The notes under the pieces were generated by a model. It was not told the DNA's origin. It was given only the letters and a program-made list of their open reading frames with translations, and did not search any database. A DNA stretch of 64,000 bases, taken from assembly GCF_940670765.1 (NCBI RefSeq), contig NZ_CALNVW010000036.1, positions 1 through 64,000 of the forward strand, given 5' to 3'. The stretch's first letter is position 1. The number at the start of each line of letters is the position of its first letter. The stretch is from Streptomyces sp. A 4/2 (GTDB taxonomy: Bacteria; Actinomycetota; Actinomycetes; Streptomycetales; Streptomycetaceae). Positions 51,010 through 62,998 of the stretch are shown here, one piece after another. A program made the position numbers and the translations under genes.

Positions 51010-51585
51010 GTGGGAGTCAGCCTCAGCAAGGGCGGCAACGTCTCGCTGACCAAGGCCGCACCCAATCTGACCGCGGTAGTCGTCGGTCTCGGATGGGATG
51101 CGCGCACCACCACCGGTGGTGACTTCGACCTCGACGCCAGCGCGCTGCTGACGAACGAGGCCGGAAAGGTCGCCAACGACTCGAACTTCGTCTTCTTCAA
51201 CAACCTCAAGAGCCCCGACGGCTCGGTGGAGCACACCGGTGACAACCTCACCGGTGAGGGCGAGGGCGACGACGAGGTCATCAAGGTGAACCTCGCCGGG
51301 GTTCCCGCCGATGTCGCCAAGATCGTGTTCCCGGTCTCGATCTACGAGGCCGAGAGCCGCCAGCAGAGCTTCGGCCAGGTCCGCAACGCGTACATCCGCG
51401 TGGTCAACCAGGCCGACAACTCCGAACTGGCGCGGTACGACCTCAGCGAGGACGCCTCGACCGAGACCGCGATGGTCTTCGGCGAGCTCTACCGCAACGG
51501 CGCCGAGTGGAAGTTCCGCGCCATCGGCCAGGGGTACGCCTCGGGACTGCGCGGTATCGCGCAGGACTTCGGCGTCAACGTCTGA
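51010..51585 (+). CDS. terD: TerD-family calcium-binding stress protein (first copy)
   Basis: The 191-residue protein has all TerD marks: [18 protein letters not shown] at the N-terminus, [20 protein letters not shown] with the first Ca2+ site, [26 protein letters not shown] with the second, and the [25 protein letters not shown] end. Its calcium-binding fold is tied to tellurite and stress resistance; the S. coelicolor homologue (tdd8, SCO2368 as I recall) affects calcium and development. GTG 51010 follows GGAGGA closely. It is followed by a close paralogue. Confidence 0.95.
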
Positions 51586-51671
51586 GCAGGTAATCGCTCC
51601 GTCCGGCGCCGCACACCCGTGCGGCGCCGGACGCGCTGACCACCGTTCACACCTCGGGGAGGACAACGATC

Positions 51672-52247
51672 ATGGGCGTCACGCTCGCCAAGGGGGGCAA
51701 TGTCTCCCTCTCGAAGGCCGCACCCAACCTCACACAAGTGCTGGTCGGACTCGGCTGGGACGCACGTTCCACCACCGGAGCCGACTTCGACCTCGACGCC
51801 AGCGCGCTGCTGTGCCAGTCGGGCCGGGTGCTCGGCGACGAATGGTTCATCTTCTACAACCAGCTGACCAGTCCCGACGGCTCGGTGGAGCACACCGGTG
51901 ACAACCTCACCGGTGAGGGCGAGGGCGACGACGAGTCGATCATCGTGGACCTCGCCAAGGTGCCGGCGCACTGCGACAAGATCGTGTTCCCGGTGTCGAT
52001 CCATGACGCGGACAACCGCGGCCAGACGTTCGGGCAGGTCGCGAATGCCTTCATCCGGGTGGTGAACCAGGCGGACGGGCAGGAACTGGCCCGTTACGAC
52101 CTGAGCGAGGACGCCTCGACCGAGACCGCGATGATCTTCGGCGAGCTCTACCGGTACGGCGGCGAATGGAAGTTCCGGGCCGTGGGGCAGGGGTACGCGT
52201 CGGGGCTGCGAGGCATCGCTCTAGACTTCGGGGTCAATGTTTCCTAA
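51672..52247 (+). CDS. terD: TerD-family calcium-binding stress protein (second copy)
   Basis: This 191-residue paralogue has the same motif order ([78 protein letters not shown]). It shares an exact 63-bp DNA tract with the first copy, evidence of gene conversion or recent duplication of that part. ATG 51672 has GGGGAGGACAACG. The gap between the two is 86 bases, so they are probably co-transcribed. Confidence 0.95.
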
Positions 52248-52385
52248 AGCATTCTTCCGGTGCGGTTCAAGTCCCGGAGCCGTCCGGGGTTTCGTGCCTG
52301 GAGCCCGGTGCCGGGTCCTCGGGGCGAGGAAACGTACATCCGCGCACGGCGCGGGGGAGATCGAACACACGTGATGGGGTAGGTA

Positions 52386-53528
52386 GTGCTTCTGAAAACC
52401 TTCGGGTGGTCATTCGTGATCACCGTGGTCGGTCTGGTCGTGGCGGTGATCTACGACGGATGGACCGCCCTGGGCATCGTGGCGATCCTCTCCATCCTCG
52501 AGATCTCGCTGTCCTTCGACAACGCCGTGATCAATGCCGGAATCCTGAAGAAGATGAATGCCTTCTGGCAGAAGATCTTCCTCACGATCGGCGTGATCAT
52601 CGCCGTCTTCGGGATGCGGCTGATCTTCCCCGTCGTGATCGTCGCCATCAGCGCCAAGATCAATCCGGTCGAAGCGGTGAAACTGGCGTTCAACGAGAAG
52701 GAGCACTACCAGCAGCTGGTGACCGACGCGCATCCGTCGATCGCCGCCTTCGGTGGGATGTTCCTGATGATGATCTTCCTCGATTTCATCTTCGAGGACC
52801 GGGACATCCAGTGGCTGCGCTGGATCGAGCGCCCGCTCGCCAAGCTCGGCAAGGTCGACATGCTCTCGGTCTGCATCGCGCTCGTCGTGCTGCTGATCTC
52901 CTCCTTCACCTTCGCGGCCCACGCCCACCAGCACGGGGGCGCACACGCCGACAAGGCGCAGACGGTTCTCATCGCCGGGATCGCCGGCCTGATCACGTAC
53001 CTCGTGGTGGGCGGACTCTCCGGGTTCTTCGAGAACCGCCTCGAAGAGGAGGAGGAGCGCGAGCAGGAGGCCGAGGAGGCGGCCAAGAAGTCCGGCTCGA
53101 ACGTCGCAGCGGTGGTGCTGGCGGGCAAGGCCGCGTTCTTCATGTTCCTCTACCTGGAGGTCCTGGACGCGTCCTTCTCCTTCGACGGGGTCATCGGCGC
53201 CTTCGCCATCACCAACGACATCGTCCTGATGGCGCTCGGCCTCGGCATCGGCGCCATGTACGTCAGGTCGCTCACGGTCTACCTGGTCCGCCAGGGCACG
53301 CTGGACGACTACGTCTACCTGGAGCACGGCGCGCACTACGCGATCGGCGCGCTCTCGGTGATCCTGCTCATCACCATCCAGTACGAGATCAACGAGGTCA
53401 TCACCGGCCTCGTCGGTGTCGTCCTGATCGCCTGGTCCTTCTGGTCGTCGGTCCGCCGCAACAAGCGGATCGAGGCCGAGGGCGGAGCGGATCCGAGCGA
53501 GAAGACGGAAGCCGTCTCCGGGGTGTGA
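52386..53528 (+). CDS. DUF475 TerC-like integral membrane protein
   Basis: The 380-residue protein has about nine membrane helices and the TerC signature acidic residues: LSILEISLSFDNAVINAGIL in one helix and YLEVLDASFSFDGVIGAFAITND in another, thought to bind metal ions. A His-rich loop (HAHQHGGAHADK) and an EEEEEREQEAEEAAKK cytoplasmic stretch are added features. TerC-type proteins partner with TerD in metal and stress response. GTG 52386 follows GGGGTAGGTA. It is 138 bases after terD2 and ends before a 17-bp hairpin. Confidence 0.9.
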   Translation: MLLKTFGWSFVITVVGLVVAVIYDGWTALGIVAILSILEISLSFDNAVINAGILKKMNAFWQKIFLTIGVIIAVFGMRLIFPVVIVAISAKINPVEAVKLAFNEKEHYQQLVTDAHPSIAAFGGMFLMMIFLDFIFEDRDIQWLRWIERPLAKLGKVDMLSVCIALVVLLISSFTFAAHAHQHGGAHADKAQTVLIAGIAGLITYLVVGGLSGFFENRLEEEEEREQEAEEAAKKSGSNVAAVVLAGKAAFFMFLYLEVLDASFSFDGVIGAFAITNDIVLMALGLGIGAMYVRSLTVYLVRQGTLDDYVYLEHGAHYAIGALSVILLITIQYEINEVITGLVGVVLIAWSFWSSVRRNKRIEAEGGADPSEKTEAVSGV

Positions 53529-53553
53529 CCCGCACGGGATTGCGGAACGCTCT

Positions 53554-53597
53554 GTACGGGGCGGTCAGGACGCGCGAGCCTCCTGACCGCCCCGTAC
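53554..53597 (+). terminator. Terminator after the TerC-like gene
   Basis: GTACGGGGCGGTCAGGA at 53554-53570 pairs exactly with 53581-53597 around a ten-base loop, splitting the transcription unit before the next Ter-type gene. Confidence 0.88.
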
Positions 53598-53645
53598 GTG
53601 TGGGAAGAGCCGGACAAGAGCCAACGAGACAGCTGGGGGTGGGAC

Positions 53646-54383
53646 ATGGCCTTCTGGGACAGTCTGCGACGGGAGCGGTCGCCGCACTTCGATTCGGGCA
53701 GCGCGGCGTCCAACGCCATCGAGCTGACCAAACGGCACCCGGTGGTCTCCCTCACCAAGCAGGGCGCGACCACCGGAAACCTGCGCGTCAACCTGTCGTG
53801 GCGGATGCGTACGTCGGACTTCGGCGGCAAGTCACGGCCGGGCGGTGGCCTGCTGCGCCATCCGTCCAAGCTGTTCCAGCCCGAAGTCGTCCAGGCGCAC
53901 ACGCAGGGCGTCGTCAACGTCGACCTCGACCTCGGGTGTCTCTACGAGCTGGAGGACGGTTCCAAGGGCGTGGTGCAGCCGCTGGGCGGCTTCCTGGGCA
54001 GCCTCAACGAATCGCCGTACGTCCAGCTGAGCGGCGACGACCGGTTCGGGTCGCCGTCCGGTGAGACGCTGTTCGTCAACCTCGACCACCGCGACGAGAT
54101 CAAGCGGCTGCTGGTCTTCGTGTACATCTACGACCAGACGCCCGCCTTCGACCGTACGCACGCCGTCGTGACGCTCTACCCCAGCAACGGCCCGCGCATC
54201 GAGATCCAGCTGGAGGAGCGCCACCCGCAGGCCCGCTCCTGCGCGGTCCTCTCCGTCGAGAAGGTCAAGGGCGACATGGTGGTGCGCCGCGAGGTGAAGT
54301 TCGTCTACGGCTTCCAGGCCGAGCTGGACCGGCTGTACGGCTGGGGGCTCCAGTGGGGCCGCGGGTACAAGACCAAGATCTGA
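53646..54383 (+). CDS. TerD-like/TerA-like tellurium-resistance-associated protein
   Basis: The 245-residue protein has a TerD-like fold with weak metal motifs: VNVDLDLGCLYELEDGSKGVVQPLGG and LNESPYVQLSGDDRFGSPSGETLFVNL, ending REVKFVYGFQAELDRLYGWGLQWGRGYKTK. It is the shorter, stand-alone type seen in actinobacterial ter loci. ATG 53646 is the first in frame. It is convergent with the next TerD gene. Confidence 0.82.
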   Translation: MAFWDSLRRERSPHFDSGSAASNAIELTKRHPVVSLTKQGATTGNLRVNLSWRMRTSDFGGKSRPGGGLLRHPSKLFQPEVVQAHTQGVVNVDLDLGCLYELEDGSKGVVQPLGGFLGSLNESPYVQLSGDDRFGSPSGETLFVNLDHRDEIKRLLVFVYIYDQTPAFDRTHAVVTLYPSNGPRIEIQLEERHPQARSCAVLSVEKVKGDMVVRREVKFVYGFQAELDRLYGWGLQWGRGYKTKI

Positions 54384-54429
54384 TCCGGCCGGGCTCACCC
54401 GGCGGGCTCACCCGGCGGGGGTGAACTCC

Positions 54430-55224
54430 CTACCGGGTGAGGAACTGCGGCCCCATCGGCGGCAGCCTGAAGTACGGATCTGGGGCGGGCGCGGCTGCCG
54501 CAGCGGGCTGCGGGTAGCCGTAAGCGGGCTGCGCGGCGGGCCGGACGGGGGCGGGATGCGGGTAGCCGTACCCGGCCGGCGGTGCCTGCGGCGGTGGCGG
54601 AAAGGCAGCGGTCGCTGCGGTCACCGGGGCGGCCGTGTGTTCCGGCTGCGGCCCCGGCCCCGAGGCCGGATCGGCCTCGTCCACCGAGATGCCGAACGCC
54701 GTAGCCAGCCCGACCAGGCCGGTCGGGTAGCCCTGCCCCACCGCACGGAACTTCCAGCCGTCGCCGCGGCGGTACAGCTCGCCGCAGATCATCGCCGTCT
54801 CCTCGCCCGTCTCCGGCTGGACGTCGAAGACCGCCAGGGCCGGTGTGCCCTCGCCGGCCGGTGCGGCGGCGTCGTACAGCAGGATCCGCAGATCCCGCAC
54901 GGTCCGGAAGGGCGCGTCGTCGGTGGAAGCGGCCAGCACCACCTGGTCGACCGACGGGTCCAGCGCAGCCAGGTCCGCCTCGACGGTGTCGGTGAGACCC
55001 TCGGTGACGCGTTTCTTCGGCAGCCGCCGTACCAGGCCGGACGGGTGGCGCGGCTGGTTGTAGAAGACGAAGTCCTCGTCCGAGCGCACCCGGCCCCCGG
55101 TACCGAGGAGCAGGGCCGATGCATCGATGTCGGGGACGTCGGGGCCCGGAGTCCAGCGGAGCACGGCCCGTACCGCCATGGCGTTCAGCGGGACGTTCGA
55201 GCCCTTCAGCATCGCGTGCGTCAT
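54430..55224 (-). CDS. TerD-domain protein with a Pro/Ala/Tyr-rich C-terminal tail
   Basis: Residues 1-170 are a TerD domain ([63 protein letters not shown]) but with DDAPFRTV where the second Ca2+ site usually is. Residues about 180-264 are a repetitive low-complexity tail ([30 protein letters not shown]), probably a flexible or interaction segment. ATG 55224 aligns with other TerD starts; ATG 55233 is also possible. It is divergent from the HpcH-like gene. Confidence 0.88.
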
Positions 55225-55411
55225 GCCCGTCATCCTGCCTTCCCCGCCGGGCCGCGGACAACGTGGGGGCACATTGCGGAGAGTTCGGTACATCCCCTCG
55301 AAACGGGCGGGTCAGGTGAATTTCATCTCCGTGGGAACTAGCGACGTACGCCCCTACGTACTATTACCGGCCACACCTCATCAGGACGACACAGCAGTAC
55401 GGGGGGAACCT

Positions 55412-56575
55412 ATGCGTCATTTCGGGCATATTCCGCCCGTTGTCCGGGACCGGCTCTTCCACCGGGAACCGGCCGACTTCACCGCGGCGTCCCCGGCGCC
55501 CACGCTCGCCGCCGCCCTCGGGGCCACGCTCTACAGCCCGGCCACCCGGCCCGCACTCGCCGACGACATACGGAAGCAGGCGGCCTGCGGGGTCGTCTCG
55601 ATGGTCCTCTGCCTGGAGGACTCGATCGACGACGCGGAGGTCGCCGGGGGCGAGGCCAATCTGGTGCGGCAGTTCGCCGACCTGGACGCGGGCGGCGGAG
55701 AGACACCGCTGCTCTTCATCCGGATCCGCGAGCCGGAACAGATACCCGACCTGGTCCACCGGCTCGGCCCGACGGCCCGGCTGCTGTCCGGATTCGTACT
55801 CCCGAAATTCACCGAGGAGCGCGGCAGCGCCTTCCTGGAGGCGCTCACCGGGGCGGAGCCCGACGGCGGCCGGCCGCTGTTCGCCATGCCGGTACTCGAA
55901 TCGCCCGAGCTGTTGCACCTGGAGAGCAGGGCCGACAGCCTCGCCGGGATTGCCCGCACCGTCGACAAGTACCGCGACCGGATCCTCGCGCTCCGGCTGG
56001 GCGTCACCGATTTCTGCTCGGTGTACGGCCTGCGCAGGACGCCCGACATGACGGCGTACGACGTCCAGATCGTCGCCGGGGTCATCGCCGACGTGGTGAA
56101 CGTGCTGGGCCGCTCGGACGGCACCGGCTTCACGATCACCGGACCCGTGTGGGAGTACTTCCGGGTCCAGGAGCGGATGTTCAAGCCGCAGCTGCGCCGC
56201 AGCCCCTTCATGGAGGGCCGGGCCGACCAGCTCCGTACCACCCTGATCGAGCACGACCTGGACGGACTGCTGCGCGAGATCGAACTCGACCGCGCGAACG
56301 GGCTGCTCGGCAAGACCTGCATCCACCCCTCGCACGTGGCGCCGGTGCACGCGCTGTCGGTGGTCAGCCATGAGGAGTTCAGTGACGCCCAGGACATCCT
56401 GCGGCCGGACCGGGACGGCGGCGGGGTGCTGCGTTCCGCGTACACGAACAAGATGAACGAGGTGAAGCCGCACCGGGCCTGGGCCGAGCGGACCCTGCTG
56501 CGGGCCGAGGCCTTCGGGGTGGCAAGGGAAGACATCGGCTTCGTCGAGCTGCTGACCGCCGGACTCTCCGGCTGA
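55412..56575 (+). CDS. HpcH/HpaI-type aldolase/citrate-lyase beta-like enzyme of the Ter biosynthetic module
   Basis: The 387-residue TIM-barrel protein has LGATLYSPATRPALADDI, the acidic metal ligand in VLCLEDSIDDAEV, and later LFAMPVLESPELLHLESRADSL, GVTDFCSVYGLRR and GLLGKTCIHPSHVAPVHAL, typical of CitE-like lyases. In ter loci such an enzyme is proposed to help make a nucleoside-like metabolite. ATG 55412 is preceded by GGGGGGAACC. Its stop overlaps the next gene's start (TGATG), so translation is coupled. Confidence 0.87.
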   Translation: MRHFGHIPPVVRDRLFHREPADFTAASPAPTLAAALGATLYSPATRPALADDIRKQAACGVVSMVLCLEDSIDDAEVAGGEANLVRQFADLDAGGGETPLLFIRIREPEQIPDLVHRLGPTARLLSGFVLPKFTEERGSAFLEALTGAEPDGGRPLFAMPVLESPELLHLESRADSLAGIARTVDKYRDRILALRLGVTDFCSVYGLRRTPDMTAYDVQIVAGVIADVVNVLGRSDGTGFTITGPVWEYFRVQERMFKPQLRRSPFMEGRADQLRTTLIEHDLDGLLREIELDRANGLLGKTCIHPSHVAPVHALSVVSHEEFSDAQDILRPDRDGGGVLRSAYTNKMNEVKPHRAWAERTLLRAEAFGVAREDIGFVELLTAGLSG

Positions 56576-59310
56576 TGCGGCCGATGCGACACACGAGAGA
56601 GACGTGCAACGTGGTCTGGTCGGGAACATGGGTCGAGAACCGGCTCGGCGTACGGCTCGTCGGGGACGACGACCTGCGGGGTCTGCTGGGCCTCGCGCTG
56701 CGACGCAATCCGAAGCGGGCCCATCTGCTGGTCTCGAACGTGCTGGGCAAGCACGTGCCGCAGCGCCCTTCGACGGTCTACGGCCACGGCTACCGGCTCG
56801 GTCTGCGGGTGCGGGAACTGCTGGGCGACGAGGCGGCGGGCCGGGCGGTCGTCCTCGGATACGCGGAGACCGCGACGGGCCTCGGCCACTCGGTCGCCGA
56901 CGGGGTGGCCCTCGCGCCCTACCTGCACTCCACCCGGCGCGCGGTCGCCGGTGTCGCGCCGGCGGGCGGCTTCGAGGAGTCGCACTCGCACGCCACCTCG
57001 CATCTGCTGCTGCCCGAGAACCCGGACCTGCTGGCGGGCGACGGCCCGCTCGTCCTCGTCGACGACGAGTTCTCCACCGGCAACACCGTGCTCAACACCG
57101 TCCGTGACCTGCACGAACGCTATCCGCGCGAGCGGTACGTCGTGGTTGCGCTGGTCGACATGCGCTCGGCCGCCGACCGGGGACGGCTGGCCGACTTCGC
57201 GCGGGAGATCGGCGCGCGGGTCGACCTCGTGACGACGGCCCGTGGCGTCGTGGAGCTGCCGGAGGGCGTACTGGAACTCGGGCAGCGGATCGTGGAGGAG
57301 CACGAGACGCGCGAGACGTGTGAGGTGCGTGGGGGGCGTGAGGCGCGCGATACGTGTGAGACGCGTGAGGCGGACGAGATACCTGAGGCGCGGGAGACGC
57401 GCGAGGCCGGCCCTGCCGAGCCGGTACGGGTGGACCTCGGCTGGCCCACGGGTGTGCCGGACGGTGGACGGCACGGCTTCACCCCCGGACACCGCGCCGC
57501 TCTCGACGCCGCGCTGCCCGGCATGGCGGCCCGTGTCGCGGCCGAGCTGCGGATCACGGGGATCACGGGGATCACGGGGATCACGGGGATCACGGGGATC
57601 ACGGGGGACACCGGGGACACCGGGGACACAGGAGCACCGAGGGGTACGGGGGACCGCCCGCGCGTTCTCGTCCTCGGCTTCGAGGAGCTGATGTACACGC
57701 CGCTCAGGCTGGGCCTCGCCCTGGAGCAGGCCGGGTACGACGTGCGTACCTCGACCACCACCCGCTCGCCCGTCCTCGCGCTGGACGACCCCGGATACGC
57801 GATCCGGACCAGGCTGGTCTTCCCCGACCACGACCGGCCCGGCGACGGCCCCGGCGAGCGCTACGCGTACAACGTGGCCGGAGGCGGCTTCGACGCCGTC
57901 GTCGCCGTGGTCGACTCCGTGGCCGACACCCCCGAACTGCACGCCCCCGGCGGGCTCCTGGCCCAGCTCGGCGCCCACACGCCCCGGGTCCTGCTGGCCG
58001 TGGTGCCCTCGTACGTCCCCGCGCCCGCTCCGGCGGAACAGCATCCGGTACCGCAGGGGCGGTGCCCCCGGCAGGGGGAGCAGCCTCCCGGACCGCAGAA
58101 GCAGCCTCCCGGACCGCAGCAACAACAGAAAGCAGCCCCCATGCCCGAGCCGTTGCGCGGCCCCGCCTTCTCCTCGTACGCCCCGGAAGACGTCGGCTGG
58201 CTGCTCCAGGACCTCTCCGGCGTCGCGCTGGAGGCGCCCGTCGAGGAGCGCGAGGAGGCGGTGCAGACCGGTGGCGCCCATTACGCCGAGTCGCTGCCCG
58301 TCGAGTACCAGCCGAGCGAGCAGTACCAGCAGCTGTTCCGGGCCGCGCTGGAGACCTCGGCGGCGCGGATCGCGCAGGCCGTCGGCACGGTCACCGAGAC
58401 ACTGCTCGCCGAGCACCCCCGGAGCGGGGAGGGGGCGGAGCCCCCGCTCGCGCGCCCGGTGCTGGTCTCGCTCGCCCGCGCCGGTACACCCGTCGGCGTA
58501 CTGATGCGCCGCTGGGCGCTCCACCGCCACGGCCTGGACCTGCCGCACTACGCGGTGTCCATCGTGCGCGGCCGGGGCATCGACGCCAACGCCCTGCGCT
58601 GGCTGGCCGCCCACCACGACCCGGCCGACATCGTCTTCGTGGACGGCTGGACCGGCAAGGGCGCGATCACCCGCGAACTGGCCGAAGCCCTCAAGGAGTT
58701 CCCCGGTTTCCGCCCGGAGATCGCGGTCCTCGCCGATCCGGGCGGCTGTGTCCGTACGTACGGCACCCGCGAGGACTTCCTGATCCCCTCCGCCTGCCTC
58801 AACTCCACGGTGTCCGGGCTCATTTCGCGCACCGTGCTCCGGGCCGACCTGGTCGGGCCCGAGGATTTCCACGGCGGGAAGTTCTACCGGGAACTGGCCG
58901 GATCCGATGTCTCCGCCCACTTCGTCGACACCGTCGCCGCCCGCTTCGACGAGGTGTCCGGAGCGGTGGACACCCAGGTGAAGGAGCTGCTGACGGCGGA
59001 CCGTGCGCCGACCTGGGAGGGCTGGGCCGCCGTCGAGCGGATCAGTGAGGAGTACGGCATCCGCGACGTCAACCTCGTCAAGCCAGGGGTCGGCGAGACC
59101 ACCCGCGTCCTGCTGCGCCGTGTCCCCTGGAAGATCCTCGCCAGAAGTGGTGCGGGCGCCGACCTCGACCACGTACGGCTGCTCGCCGAACAGCGCGGCG
59201 TCCCGGTCGAGGAGGTCGACGGCCTGCCGTACACCTGCGTCGGTCTGATCCACCCGCGCTTCACCCGTGGCGCGACCGGCGCCGACGGCACCGCGGCGGT
59301 GGCCCGATGA
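56575..59310 (+). CDS. PRTase-TRSP-StiP/PELOTA fusion protein of the Ter biosynthetic module
   Basis: The 911-residue protein joins modules. Residues 15-240 are a phosphoribosyltransferase with the PRPP loop LVLVDDEFSTGNTVLNTV (about 160-175). Low-complexity linkers follow (about 243-283, with repeated ETRE/ARETRE units, and 325-350, ITG/DTG repeats). Residues 362-495 are a TRSP domain (PRVLVLGFEELMYTPLRLGLALEQAG). A Pro/Gln linker leads at residue 523 to a StiP-type Cys-protease-like domain (LVSLARAGTPVGVLMRRWALHRHG; FVDGWTGKGAITRELAEAL), ending in a PELOTA-like part (about 818-905). These are often two separate genes in ter loci. It is coupled by TGATG to the upstream lyase and overlaps the HAD gene. 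A start at GTG 56611 is also possible. Confidence 0.87.
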   Translation: MRPMRHTRETCNVVWSGTWVENRLGVRLVGDDDLRGLLGLALRRNPKRAHLLVSNVLGKHVPQRPSTVYGHGYRLGLRVRELLGDEAAGRAVVLGYAETATGLGHSVADGVALAPYLHSTRRAVAGVAPAGGFEESHSHATSHLLLPENPDLLAGDGPLVLVDDEFSTGNTVLNTVRDLHERYPRERYVVVALVDMRSAADRGRLADFAREIGARVDLVTTARGVVELPEGVLELGQRIVEEHETRETCEVRGGREARDTCETREADEIPEARETREAGPAEPVRVDLGWPTGVPDGGRHGFTPGHRAALDAALPGMAARVAAELRITGITGITGITGITGITGDTGDTGDTGAPRGTGDRPRVLVLGFEELMYTPLRLGLALEQAGYDVRTSTTTRSPVLALDDPGYAIRTRLVFPDHDRPGDGPGERYAYNVAGGGFDAVVAVVDSVADTPELHAPGGLLAQLGAHTPRVLLAVVPSYVPAPAPAEQHPVPQGRCPRQGEQPPGPQKQPPGPQQQQKAAPMPEPLRGPAFSSYAPEDVGWLLQDLSGVALEAPVEEREEAVQTGGAHYAESLPVEYQPSEQYQQLFRAALETSAARIAQAVGTVTETLLAEHPRSGEGAEPPLARPVLVSLARAGTPVGVLMRRWALHRHGLDLPHYAVSIVRGRGIDANALRWLAAHHDPADIVFVDGWTGKGAITRELAEALKEFPGFRPEIAVLADPGGCVRTYGTREDFLIPSACLNSTVSGLISRTVLRADLVGPEDFHGGKFYRELAGSDVSAHFVDTVAARFDEVSGAVDTQVKELLTADRAPTWEGWAAVERISEEYGIRDVNLVKPGVGETTRVLLRRVPWKILARSGAGADLDHVRLLAEQRGVPVEEVDGLPYTCVGLIHPRFTRGATGADGTAAVAR
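57553..57633 (+). repeat. In-frame 9-bp minisatellite inside the fusion gene
   Basis: Six exact copies of ATCACGGGG (57553-57606) are followed by GACACCGGG, GACACCGGG and GACACAGGA (to 57633). They encode ITG repeats, then DTG repeats, between the PRTase and TRSP domains. Confidence 0.95.
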
Positions 59311-60134
59311 GCCGGTCGGCACCCGTCCTCGTCGCCAGCGACCTCGACCGCACCCTCATCTACTCGGCGCCCGCCCTGGACCTGACCGGGCCCGACGCTC
59401 AGGCGCCCCGGCTGTTGTGCGTGGAGGTGTACGAGAGCAGGCCGCTCTCGTACATGACGGAGACCGCCGCCGGGCTGCTGCGCGCACTCGCCGCCGACAC
59501 CGTCTTCGTACCGACGACCACCCGCACCAGGGAGCAGTACCACCGCATCCAACTGCCCTGCGCCACACCGGAGTTCGCGATCTGCGCGAACGGCGGCCGA
59601 CTGCTCGTCGACGGGGTGTCCGACCCCGACTGGGAGTCCGCGGTGGCCGGACGCCTCGCCGAGGAGTGCGCCCCGCTGGCCGAGGTGCGCGCCCACCTCG
59701 TCTCCGCCGCCGACCCCGCCTGGCTGCTCAAGGAGCGCGTCGCCGAGGACCTCTTCGCCTATCTGGTCGTCGAGCGGAGCCTGCTGCCCGAGGGCTGGGC
59801 CGGTGAGCTCGCCGACTGGGCCGGGGCGCGCGGCTGGACGGTCTCCCTCCAGGGCCGCAAGCTCTACGTCGTTCCCGAGCCGCTCACCAAGAGCGCGGCC
59901 ATGCGTGAGGTGGCCCGCCGTACCGGCGCCGAACTCACCCTGACCGCAGGCGATTCGCTCCTGGACGCGGATCTGCTGCTGGCCGGCGACCGGGGCTGGC
60001 GTCCGGCGCACGGTGAGCTGGGGGACTCCGGCTGGAGTGCACCGCATGTCACCGTGACCGCCGGGCGTGGGGTCGCCGCGGGCGAGGAGATCCTGCGGGA
60101 ATTCGGCCGTGCGGCCGACGCGCACCGGGGGTGA
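59307..60134 (+). CDS. HAD-superfamily hydrolase of the Ter biosynthetic module
   Basis: The 275-residue protein has HAD motif I SDLDRTLIY (Asp12 and Asp14), motif II as VPTTTRTREQYHRI, the motif III Lys (LTKSAAMREV) and motif IV as LTAGDSLLDADLLLAG. It is a phosphatase, likely acting on a nucleotide- or sugar-phosphate product of the upstream enzymes. ATG 59307 overlaps the preceding stop by four bases (ATGA), so it is co-translated with the fusion gene. Confidence 0.9.
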   Translation: MSRSAPVLVASDLDRTLIYSAPALDLTGPDAQAPRLLCVEVYESRPLSYMTETAAGLLRALAADTVFVPTTTRTREQYHRIQLPCATPEFAICANGGRLLVDGVSDPDWESAVAGRLAEECAPLAEVRAHLVSAADPAWLLKERVAEDLFAYLVVERSLLPEGWAGELADWAGARGWTVSLQGRKLYVVPEPLTKSAAMREVARRTGAELTLTAGDSLLDADLLLAGDRGWRPAHGELGDSGWSAPHVTVTAGRGVAAGEEILREFGRAADAHRG

Positions 60135-60194
60135 CGGGCGCCGTCGGGCCCGCCGTTCCTCCCGGTATCGCCGTCCTGCCGGCACCGGTTGTTC

Positions 60195-60407
60195 CTACCC
60201 GCAGCACCCTCCGCCGCAGCAACCGCCTCCGCCGCCTCCGGACGGTGCGGCGGCCGTCGACGATCCGCCGACAGCCACCGCGGACAGCAGCTTCACCGTG
60301 TCCTCGTGGCCGTCGGGGCAGGCGGCGGGCGCCGAGGACTCCGCCATCGGGCGGCTGATCTCGAAGGTGTCGCCGCACGTGCGGCAGCGGTACTCGTAAC
60401 GGGGCAT
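60195..60407 (-). CDS. FmdB-family zinc-ribbon protein
   Basis: The 70-residue protein has the FmdB zinc-ribbon start MPRYEYRCRTCGDTFEISRPMAE and a second Cys (ACPDGHEDTVKLLSAVAVGG), followed by a Gly/Cys-rich tail (GGGGGGCCGGGCCG). It is a putative regulatory or metal-binding protein. ATG 60407 is the family start. It is convergent with the HAD gene and follows a terminator of the VOC gene upstream. Confidence 0.9.
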   Translation of the reverse strand: MPRYEYRCRTCGDTFEISRPMAESSAPAACPDGHEDTVKLLSAVAVGGSSTAAAPSGGGGGGCCGGGCCG

Positions 60408-60466
60408 GGCGCCAAGGTTAGAGGGGGACCGCCCCTCGGCGCACCACCCCCGTCCCACCCCGTACC

Positions 60467-60513
60467 ACTCCGCCCCGCAGGACCGGACAGAGCCGGGTCC
60501 TGCGGGGCGGAGT
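60467..60513 (-). terminator. Terminator of the VOC gene
   Basis: ACTCCGCCCCGCAGGACC at 60467-60484 pairs exactly with 60496-60513 (18 bp, 11-base loop), just past the VOC stop on the minus strand. Confidence 0.88.
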
Positions 60514-60532
60514 GACGTGCCCGGGTGGGGGA

Positions 60533-61339
60533 TCAGGTGGCTTCGGGTCCGGCCGTCCTGATGACCGCGAAGGTGCCGCCCTGCGGGTCCTGGACGACGG
60601 CCATCCGGCCCGCCATCATGTCGAACGGCGGCTTGAGGACATTGCCCCCGGCCCGGACCAGTGCGTCGACCGTGCTGTCGGTGTCGTCGACAGCGAAGTA
60701 CGTCAGCCAGTGCGAGGGCGTTCCCGGCGGCAGGTCGTCGATGTTGGACAGGCCCTGCAGGCCGCCGACCGCGCGGCCCTCCACCGACAGCGAGAAGTAG
60801 CCCTCCCCGCCCTCCATGGGCGCGACGGTGATACCCAGCGCCTTGGAGTAGAAGGCCGAGGCGGCGGCGGGGTCACTGGTGTCGACCTCGTTCCAGATGA
60901 CCGCCCCGGGCTCGTTGACGATCCCCGCACCGGGGAAGTCGCGAGCCTGCCAGAGGCCGAAGGCGGCGCCCGTGGGGTCGGTCACCACGGCCATCCGGCC
61001 GAGCGTGAGCACGTCCATGCCGGGCATCACGACCTGGCCGCCGTTGCCGGTGACCGCCTTCTCGGTGGCGTCCACGTCGGCGGTGGCCAGGTAGGTGGTC
61101 CACACGGTCGGCGGCGTCGGGTCGGGCCGGCTGCCGTCCGGGTTGAGCGCGGCCATGATCCCGGCCACCGGCTTGCCGTTCAGGGTGCAGAGCGCGTAAC
61201 CCCCGGTGTCGGGTAGTCCGACTTCTCCCTGCCAGCCGAAGAGGTCGCGGTAGAAGTCGAGAGCGGCCTGCTGGTCGGCGACCAGGAGATCGACCCAGCA
61301 CGGGGTACCAGTTGCGTAGGGGCCGGTGACGTCGGGCAT
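60533..61339 (-). CDS. VOC-family protein with two glyoxalase-type domains
   Basis: The 268-residue protein has two tandem VOC modules: GTPCWVDLLVADQQAALDFYRDLFGW with TTYLATADVDATEKAV and MAVVTDPTGAAFGLWQ, then GAVIWNEVDTSDPAAASAFYSKALG with LTYFAVDDTDSTVDALV and MAVVQDPQGGTFAVIR. This type is common in Streptomyces as glyoxalase/bleomycin-resistance-like (hydroxylase-like) proteins; the substrate is unknown. ATG 61339 is the start. A 23-bp direct repeat lies just upstream. Confidence 0.9.
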   Translation of the reverse strand: MPDVTGPYATGTPCWVDLLVADQQAALDFYRDLFGWQGEVGLPDTGGYALCTLNGKPVAGIMAALNPDGSRPDPTPPTVWTTYLATADVDATEKAVTGNGGQVVMPGMDVLTLGRMAVVTDPTGAAFGLWQARDFPGAGIVNEPGAVIWNEVDTSDPAAASAFYSKALGITVAPMEGGEGYFSLSVEGRAVGGLQGLSNIDDLPPGTPSHWLTYFAVDDTDSTVDALVRAGGNVLKPPFDMMAGRMAVVQDPQGGTFAVIRTAGPEAT

Positions 61340-61353
61340 GAGGAGCCTCCAAA

Positions 61354-61399
61354 GACTGAAGCGGGGCTGTCCCGAAGACTGATGCGGGGCTGTCCCGGA
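61354..61399. repeat. 23-bp direct tandem repeat upstream of the VOC gene
   Basis: Two copies of GACTGAAGCGGGGCTGTCCC plus three bases occur back to back (61354-61376 and 61377-61399), differing by two bases. They may contain duplicated promoter or operator elements. Confidence 0.8.
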
Positions 61400-61571
61400 G
61401 TGGCGTACCCATCTCTGAGCAGCCCTTTGTTCTCTGCCGGTACACGGTCCACATCAGTCTTCCACCGGCTCACGGCACGTGCATCTTCGCGGGCGACGGC
61501 TCGGGTGTGCTCGTTCCCCGGGAGCGAGCGGCCCGCTCGGTACGGCCCGCTGCCTACCTCGGGGGAGGCCG

Positions 61572-62927
61572 TCAGTGCCCGGAGCCGCGCTCCTCGCGGA
61601 TCTGCTCGACCACCCGGGTGGCGGTCTTCCGTACGTCCTCGGTCTCGGTGAGGAAGTGCCAGTAGTCGGGGTGCCGCCCCTCCAGTCCGGCGACCGCCTT
61701 GTCCAGCCGCTCCACCGCGAGGTCCAGCGGACGGGCGTGCCGCGGCTCGGGGGTGCTGCGGCCGGCCATCGCCAGCCGCTGGGCGTCCCGGATCGCGAAC
61801 CGGGTCCGCTCGATCTCCTGCTGGGGATCCCTGGCCACGGCATTCAGCCGTTCCAGCCGCGCACCGGCCGCGGACACGGCCTCGTCGGTGCTGTTCAGCA
61901 GCGCCCGTACCGTACCGAGCAGGGACGTCGCGTCGGGCCAGCGCTGCTCGGCGCGGGCCTTGGCCGCGTCCTTCAGCTTCTCCTCGGCCTGCCGCACGGA
62001 CGCCGCGGCCTGCTCGGGCACCTGCTGGAGGTCCTGCCAGCACGGCGCGGTGAAACGCCGCCGCAACTCGCTGAGGACCGGGGCGACCGTGCCCGCCCGG
62101 GTGGTGAGCGCCTGCGCGCGGGTGCGCAGCGAGACCAGCCGCCGGTCGATCTCGGCGGCCCGCTCGGGCAGTTGGGCGGCCTCCGCCCGTACCGCTTCCG
62201 CGTCGCGCAGCACCTGGTCGGCGCGTTGCAGTGTCGCCGTCACGCCGTGCTGGCCGGCGCCCTGGTTGAGCCTGGTCAGCTCCGGCCCGAGCGCCGCGAG
62301 CCGGGCGGCCAGGTCGTCGGCCTTGAGTCCGGCGCCGCGTACCGCGTCCAGCGCGTTGCTCGCGGACAGCAGTGCCTGGCGGGCCCGCTCCACGGCGGGC
62401 GCCAGCCGGGCGAGTTCGGTCTCGGCCTTGCCGAGCAGCGGTTCCAGCCCCTGCGCGAACCGGTCGAGCTCTCCCTTCACCCGGAGGAGATCGTCCTTGG
62501 CCCGGGTCAGCTCCGTACGCGCCTGGGAAGCCGCGGACGCCTCCAGGCCGTCGCGGTCCAGGTCGTGGGCGTCGACCGCGGTGATGTACGAGGTGCTGAC
62601 CTCGTCGATGCGCTGCCCCAGCGAGGCGAAATCAGCCAGGGCCTTGCGCGCCGCGGGTGAATTGTCCACCGCGGAGATCGTCTCGATCGAGATCCGCAGA
62701 TCGCGCTGCGCGGTGTCCAGGTCGTAGAAGGCCGCAGCCGCGGCGTCCTTCGCGGCCTGCGCCTCCGCCCGCTGGCTCTCACCGCGCCCGCCGAACCAGC
62801 GCCGCGTACCCCCACCGGCGAACGCCCCGGCCAGTGAGGCCAGCAGCGGCACCGGAAGGACCATGAGCGTCAGGACATCCCGGACGGCACTCGCTCGCGC
62901 ATACGGCTGTCCACGTCTTGCCGTCAC
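61572..62927 (-). CDS. N-terminally anchored coiled-coil protein
   Basis: The 451-residue protein has one N-terminal hydrophobic segment (DVLTLMVLPVPLLASLAGAFAGGG) followed by an Ala/Leu/Arg/Glu-rich region (about 50-380) with heptad-like periodicity, consistent with long coiled coil or spectrin-like helices (KDDLLRVKGELDRFAQGLEPLLGKAETELARL). No catalytic motif is seen. A structural, septation or scaffold role is possible, but no family can be named. GTG 62927 follows GGGAGCGGGAT. Confidence 0.75.
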   Translation of the reverse strand: MTARRGQPYARASAVRDVLTLMVLPVPLLASLAGAFAGGGTRRWFGGRGESQRAEAQAAKDAAAAAFYDLDTAQRDLRISIETISAVDNSPAARKALADFASLGQRIDEVSTSYITAVDAHDLDRDGLEASAASQARTELTRAKDDLLRVKGELDRFAQGLEPLLGKAETELARLAPAVERARQALLSASNALDAVRGAGLKADDLAARLAALGPELTRLNQGAGQHGVTATLQRADQVLRDAEAVRAEAAQLPERAAEIDRRLVSLRTRAQALTTRAGTVAPVLSELRRRFTAPCWQDLQQVPEQAAASVRQAEEKLKDAAKARAEQRWPDATSLLGTVRALLNSTDEAVSAAGARLERLNAVARDPQQEIERTRFAIRDAQRLAMAGRSTPEPRHARPLDLAVERLDKAVAGLEGRHPDYWHFLTETEDVRKTATRVVEQIREERGSGH

Positions 62928-62998
62928 ATCCCGCTCCCGTGCTGGTCCGCCCTGCCCCGGCCATTCTCCCACCAGGTAGGGACGAACACACAGGCCGG

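Follow-up and report, generated by a model that had tools for sequence, protein, structure and literature searches.

Does the joining of two Ter-linked genes in one reading frame mark an oddity of a single Streptomyces strain, and what does the joined gene make? The question is raised by a 64,000-nucleotide (nt) stretch of Streptomyces sp. A 4/2 (contig NZ_CALNVW010000036.1, positions 1 to 64,000; hereafter the window), in which an open reading frame (ORF) at 56575-59310 unites a phosphoribosyltransferase (PRTase) and its TRSP domain with StiP and PELOTA domains. A first reading, made from the sequence only, had called this fusion unusual and had seen in it a protease tethered to a synthetase. 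Ter-linked PRTase_2-TRSP and StiP(PRTase_1)-PELOTA_1 genes were reportedly described by Anantharaman, Iyer and Aravind in 2012. That description is cited in PMC7824862 and PMC5571608. Here we find that the fused gene is real but ordinary, the standard form in Streptomyces. Across the genus its linker usually keeps Shine-Dalgarno (SD) letters and a start codon beyond what the protein needs, and we put at about 0.7 the probability that this is a dual-product gene giving, besides the full fusion, a free StiP-PELOTA protein from an internal start.

One chain of four domains

Translation of the ORF yields 911 codons with no internal stop, and the copy matched in the whole genome is likewise free of one. 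All four domains exceed their Pfam curated cut-offs, and the continuous frame joining PRTase, TRSP, StiP and PELOTA stands as first read. The parts of the gene are as follows (aa, amino acids).

56575..59310, plus strand: fused ORF PRTase_2 - TRSP - StiP - PELOTA_1, 911 aa (translation, Pfam)
56683..57246, plus strand: PRTase_2 domain, residues 37-224, with loop VLVDDEFSTGNT (Pfam PF15609, E 1.1e-66)
57655..57963, plus strand: TRSP domain, residues 361-463 (Pfam PF12500)
58021..58152, plus strand: Pro/Gln-rich interdomain linker, 132 nt, predicted disordered (linker measurement, structure model)
58079..58119, plus strand: perfect 21-bp tandem repeat, 7 codons per unit (repeat analysis)
58171..58935, plus strand: StiP domain, residues 533-787, with a predicted phosphoribosyltransferase-like fold and without invariant Cys (Pfam PF11202)
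59014..59253, plus strand: PELOTA_1 domain, residues 814-893, L7Ae-like (Pfam, sequence and fold matches)

The linker is indeed rich in Pro and Gln at residues 495-522, and MPEP begins at 58141 (M523). The assembly has neither stop nor frameshift at residues 495-523. An error of sequencing or assembly that joined two genes would be a most improbable explanation, as the same frame runs over the junction in nearly all loci of the genus (119 of 122, see below).

Fusion is the rule in Streptomyces

Long open frames can arise by chance in high-GC DNA, and we therefore dropped them as a proxy for fusion (locus L113 has an open frame of 928 aa and is split). Instead, a locus was called fused when TRSP, or PRTase_2 where TRSP was unmatched, and StiP lay in the same frame with no stop between them. 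Among 79 distinct loci found on scanned genome contigs, 56 were fused, 20 split and 3 undecidable. The TRSP-StiP junction was fused in 55 of 55 decidable loci of named Streptomyces, one further Streptomyces locus (L069) being cut off by the contig end, and the only fused locus outside Streptomyces among the 56 came from Nocardia (L053). The split form was found in Kitasatospora, Embleya, Actinomadura, Williamsia, Sphingomonas and other loci examined.

In an enlarged set of 170 rows (identical StiP DNA dropped, TRSP required within 500 nt), the genus was taken as the named Streptomyces records together with the other genomes classed in the same genus as the window, the two being intermixed in trees. 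Its 122 non-redundant loci comprised 119 fused ones (55 named Streptomyces records, 63 other same-genus genomes and the window) and 3 split ones, against 18 fused and 30 split elsewhere; the genus rows are not random but include the best-scoring StiP matches and 14 stretches chosen for short or broken frames, all but one (G308) from the genus, a choice that favours finding splits. Two of the three splits, in close relatives, have a TGA just 5' of the StiP start, and the third has TGATG. PRTase_2 lay in the same open frame in 106 of the 119 fused loci, and in 8 it had no match within the stretch. StiP is present in 242 of 246 genomes of the genus; a phylum-wide search for TRSP covered mostly genomes without the module (match in 9 of 198). 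A rare or recent fusion is ruled out by the counts of 55/55 and 119/122. The sequence-only reading had itself named fusion in most Streptomyces orthologues as what would speak against its view, and this is what we found.

A wider tree was built from 95 of the 170 rows, taking every row outside the genus and a subsample within it (62 fused and 33 split in total). It needs at least 9 changes between the fused and split states, 8 of them forced by well-supported branches, these trees being quick FastTree runs in which the placement of long branches is unsure. As the two states alternate at least 8 times on this tree, fusion and fission are recurrent in actinobacteria. A second genus, g51, has StiP in 64 of 78 genomes. 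Of 32 rows, which take in L053 and retain duplicates, 22 are fused and 10 split, a count that rests on 30 loci listed for g51; two members of g51 branch with Nocardia L053 in the 95-row tree.

Two further arrangements were noted. At L071-L074, L076, L077 and L080 (Sphingomonas, Obscuribacterales, Melainabacteria, Novosphingobium, Psychrobacter) the StiP match lies about 800-1800 nt from the TRSP match (for L077 and L080, from the PRTase match), and a further gene may stand between the two halves. In L185 (G308, of the same family) the StiP domain itself is broken by a frame change and matches in two frames, with the TRSP-StiP junction still in frame, either as a decayed gene or through a sequencing error.

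A linker of changing length and constant frame

The TRSP-StiP linker ranges from 12 to 273 nt across the genus and is mostly Pro/Ala-rich. Its length changed 74 times on a tree that covers 120 of the 122 genus loci (two short rows omitted), and a frame or stop break at the junction was seen in only 3 of the 122; fused loci being defined by frame, the fair statistic is these 3 broken loci against the many length changes. That so many changes left so few broken junctions argues that the full-length protein is needed. In the window, residues 486-523 have a predicted local distance difference test (pLDDT) score below 50 in the full-length model (mean pLDDT 75.8, predicted template modelling score 0.57), as for a flexible tether. 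In L162 (G462) the linker consists of the StiP start copied in tandem (LPEPLRGP repeated), and its sequence illustrates one way in which linkers can grow by whole codons.

To the sequence-only reading the linker had looked like former intergenic DNA, a view that split relatives bear out. In L116 and L136, of the window's family, a candidate ATG stands 15 nt 5' of the StiP anchor, in the split genus loci L176 and L177 a stop is followed by an ATG at the same place, and M523 lies near these candidate starts.

A putative start site within the linker

58127..58132, plus strand: putative internal SD motif AGAAAG, 8 nt before the ATG, -5.7 kcal/mol, weak to middling
58141..58143, plus strand: putative internal start codon ATG (M523), with a start kept nearby in most relatives
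58141..59310, plus strand: predicted second product, free StiP-PELOTA, 389 aa (from sequence conservation)

Fused linkers of the genus contain an ATG in 108 of 119 loci and a GTG in 3, and in 76 of the 108 the StiP anchor follows the final ATG at a distance of exactly 15 nt. A purine block occupies about -12 to -7 relative to this ATG, the linker being otherwise C-rich. It comes in two main SD types, GAAAGG and AGGAG/AGGAA, the remainder being ACAGG, GAGAG and more, and its spacing to the ATG is 6 nt in 65 of 77 typed sites. The two main types encode different peptides (ERP..M and RQEP..M), so that the purine motifs are not explained by protein sequence alone. One of the strict motifs GAAAGG, AGGAG or AGGAA is in place at 78 of 108 linker ATGs, compared with 5 of 528 other in-frame ATGs. 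Of 68 Glu-Arg pairs in linkers, 52 are written GAAAGG; of 744 such pairs in the remaining parts of these ORFs, none is. Where Glu-Arg precedes the linker Met (54 loci), Arg is AGG in 51, as against a share of at most 3.7% at any of 23 Arg columns that are invariant in these proteins, and Glu is GAA in 52, the mean over 17 invariant Glu columns being 19%. From these patterns we infer that ribosomes initiate at the linker ATG.

Pairing energies with the 3' end of 16S rRNA point in the same direction under one tail. With the tail ACCUCCUUUCU, 111 linker sites had a mean of -6.7 kcal/mol, compared with -4.0 for the 528 other in-frame ATGs, -3.0 for codon-permuted linkers and -5.0 for synonymous recodings. 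With an E. coli-like tail the linker sites gave -4.48, the other ATGs -4.21 and synonymous recodings -4.82, and under all three tails used only the codon-permutation control stays clearly weaker. Of 26 genomes of the genus, 17 showed a 16S end with the Streptomyces tail. Folds of 50 nt around the start were weaker at linker ATGs (-12.0, n = 108) than at other ATGs (-16.5, n = 478), and base composition is perhaps part of the cause.

Several points weigh against a dual-product gene. Neither ATG nor GTG is present in 8 of the 119 fused genus linkers, and in five of the 119 (L051, L054, L087, L179 and L183) the frame is broken, or a stop occurs, further upstream as assembled; these five may be pseudogenes or reflect sequencing errors. 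With the core ACCUCCU alone (7 nt) the linker sites reach -3.86, the other ATGs -3.46 and synonymous recodings -4.54; the gain nearly vanishes, and the energy test thus depends on the longer Streptomyces tail (UUUCU), a 16S end with which was not found in the window's own assembly. GAA by itself is not special, one invariant Glu column having 98% GAA and two about 70%. The loci are related by descent, and P values overstate their independence; when they are grouped in 31 protein clusters, a start with an SD-like match is present in 22, a start by itself in 2, and neither in 7. The window's AGAAAG is not among the strict motifs and is one of the weaker sites. Of the 22 fused linkers of the g51 set, 8 have an ATG and 17 have either ATG or GTG, the positions being scattered. 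Five g51 linker ATGs have a strong SD match (two of the five are identical in sequence). The scatter also implies that fusion does not by itself bring about a start at a fixed position.

One alternative is a plain fusion, in which the 911-aa protein would be the only product and the start and SD letters would be relics of a separate StiP gene. Candidate StiP starts at the same place in some split relatives are in its favour, as are fused forms without an internal start, which occur in the genus (the eight above) and beyond. A relic, however, should drift to common codons, and rare GAA AGG is held in nearly all loci with Glu-Arg. Moreover, set against the 74 changes in linker length, the genus tree has 22 changes in SD type (counting "other" and "no start" as types) and only 4 in the presence of the start. 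The letters turn over and the site is kept, as expected of selection on initiation. We therefore regard a plain fusion as conceivable but rather unlikely.

Within genes, SD-like codons have been proposed to pause ribosomes, and the purine-rich motif might slow them between the domains and aid folding without being a start site. Pausing needs no start codon, yet the motif, where typed, mostly keeps its 6-nt distance to the ATG, the strict form is absent from 8 of 8 linkers with neither ATG nor GTG, and three loci that lack the ATG have GTG, also a start codon, near the site. We judge this explanation improbable.

Internal initiation is therefore our preferred reading, and conservation makes such a start very likely across the genus. 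The window's site reads CAG AAA GCA GCC CCC ATG and uses AAA, a rare codon that accounts for 49 of the 1285 Lys codons counted in the parts of the ORFs that were compared. An internal start is likely in this copy too, and would be weaker than in most relatives.

A separate observation concerns alignment column 310, where an invariant Glu is GAA in 98% of the 54 loci, GAG being the usual choice for Glu. This column may mark a further element conserved at the level of letters.

A predicted phosphoribosyltransferase-like fold for StiP

The Pfam release used names PF11202 a cysteine protease, and on this name one could see the gene as tying metabolite synthesis covalently to a protease, which would be unusual. 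We found no invariant cysteine in StiP across 42 StiP-PELOTA sequences, a diversity pick from 198 loci that includes Psychrobacter, Sphingomonas and Melainabacteria, and no cysteine stood among the nearly invariant columns either. The best Cys columns of the StiP domain reach 36 and 35 of 42, and at the first of them the six sequences that lack Cys have V, L or I. Invariant stretches of StiP-PELOTA include RAG.P.G and DGWTGKG.

The AlphaFold2 model of StiP (pLDDT 90.7) looks like a relative of the PRTases. In Foldseek, PyrR and HPRT rows had probabilities of 0.93-1.00 with modest E values (best 8.7e-4, two rows below 0.001), and 12 of the 50 rows listed were other folds at probability 0.21-0.47. 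VIA-align gave Z 9.6 to 4p81_A (root-mean-square deviation 3.2, 145 residues) and many PyrR/HPRT rows at Z of about 9 to 9.6; the capsule multienzyme 8a0c_A matched at Z 11.4 (deviation 3.9, 194 residues). The rows of both searches were mostly PRTases, with some low-probability pyridoxal phosphate enzymes and L7Ae-like rows; no protease was among the matches listed, although absence there is no proof. StiP would share its predicted fold with type I phosphoribosyltransferases such as PyrR and HPRT and differ from them in its stretch VFVDGWTGKGAI, which resembles a loop for phosphoribosyl pyrophosphate (PRPP) and lacks the second acidic residue. Profile comparison of StiP with PRTase_2 of the same chain detected no similarity, and a sequence-level duplication of PRTase_2 is unsupported.

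The PELOTA part matches L7Ae-like proteins, weakly by sequence and also in the fold search. Among solved structures, sequence searches gave weak L7Ae-type matches for this part with a few L24 rows, and matches to the repeat region were due to chance.

The lack of an invariant cysteine leads us to reject StiP as a cysteine protease of the kind its Pfam name suggests, and StiP is probably not a protease. In PMC13109261, PF11202 appears as PRTase_1. As fusion is moreover the rule in Streptomyces, an unusual synthetase-protease link, part of the sequence-only reading, is very improbable. PMC5571608 credits Anantharaman and co-workers with a PRTase joined to PELOTA in Ter operons. Given this citation and the PRTase_1 name, the phosphoribosyltransferase view of StiP is a return to an earlier reading and not a new one.

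Gene context

55127..56575, plus strand: C-C bond lyase (Pfam PF15617, E 3.8e-119)
59307..60134, plus strand: downstream ORF, possibly a HAD phosphatase (S6PP match below cut-off)
51672..52247, plus strand: TerD gene (profile match)
54430..55293, minus strand: TerD gene (profile match)

With four domains above cut-off and C-C bond lyase and TerD genes close by, the fused ORF belongs to a Ter-linked module, the setting in which it had first been placed. The final base of the lyase gene is base 1 of the fused ORF, and the downstream ORF overlaps its 3' end by 4 nt; the S6PP match of the latter scored 16.5 bits (cut-off 20.3). No ATP-grasp family match was found among the scanned ORFs of 51489-62972 (some ORFs only), no NCBIfam match for the fused ORF, and no match to PADLOC phage-defence families for four proteins.

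The spacer between PRTase_2 and TRSP has two repeats. At 57551-57626 (residues about 326-350) a 9-bp tandem repeat encodes ITGITG...DTGDTG, a pattern matched in none of 153 other spacers measured. A second, imperfect 9-bp repeat at 57304-57405 encodes a run of RET/REA-like units and is predicted to be disordered in part.

Discussion

In the mechanism that we propose, two ancestral operon genes would have been joined in frame through a fast-changing, disordered linker in which the second half still has its own ribosome-binding site and start codon. One mRNA would then give the 911-aa fusion and extra free StiP-PELOTA from M523, and the purpose may be to supply additional StiP-PELOTA subunits beside the tethered one. 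By what is known of the families, both halves might contribute to a nucleoside-like Ter metabolite: PRTase_2 and StiP, the latter by its phosphoribosyltransferase-like fold, would take PRPP-linked steps of the Ter route, and PELOTA would be an L7Ae-like end piece, perhaps RNA-binding. PMC7824862 describes the Ter system as one of nucleoside-like signals made by PRTases and HAD phosphatases. For Streptomyces as a whole, we consider it reasonably probable that an operon pair became one ORF in which the ribosome-binding site of the second gene was kept, and that selection holds both frame and start, yielding tethered and free StiP-PELOTA at a set ratio; other actinobacteria would use two genes or the fusion alone.

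Compared with the known Ter-linked gene pair, the four Pfam domains, the upstream C-C bond lyase and the nearby TerD genes are the same. The difference is that the four domains form one chain in Streptomyces and are split in other loci, e.g. in Kitasatospora. A parallel for the second product is cas8b, which yields Cas11b from an internal in-frame start, the extra copies serving as subunits of the complex (PMC11899642). We infer by analogy that free StiP-PELOTA may be supplied in much the same way. Common to both are a start inside a longer ORF, an SD-like motif upstream of it and a C-terminal product. Here, by contrast, the start lies in a linker between ancestrally separate genes, its letters are conserved across a genus, and the product is predicted. 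No title on this fusion or its internal start was among the literature matches listed, most subscription journals being outside reach. What is new is the conserved internal ribosome-binding site within the fused gene across the genus; the reported oddity is ordinary.

Taken as one ORF, the gene would seem to make just one protein. Should there be a second product, ignoring it would lead to a misreading of deletion, tagging and structural experiments on the Ter module of Streptomyces. The rare GAA AGG codons kept at the linker offer a sequence mark for other dual-product fusions in high-GC genomes. With the label of StiP corrected, the chain would unite two domains for synthesis instead of pairing a synthetase with a protease. 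The module, if this holds true, would offer a ready-made series of cases in which to test what makes genes join and separate.

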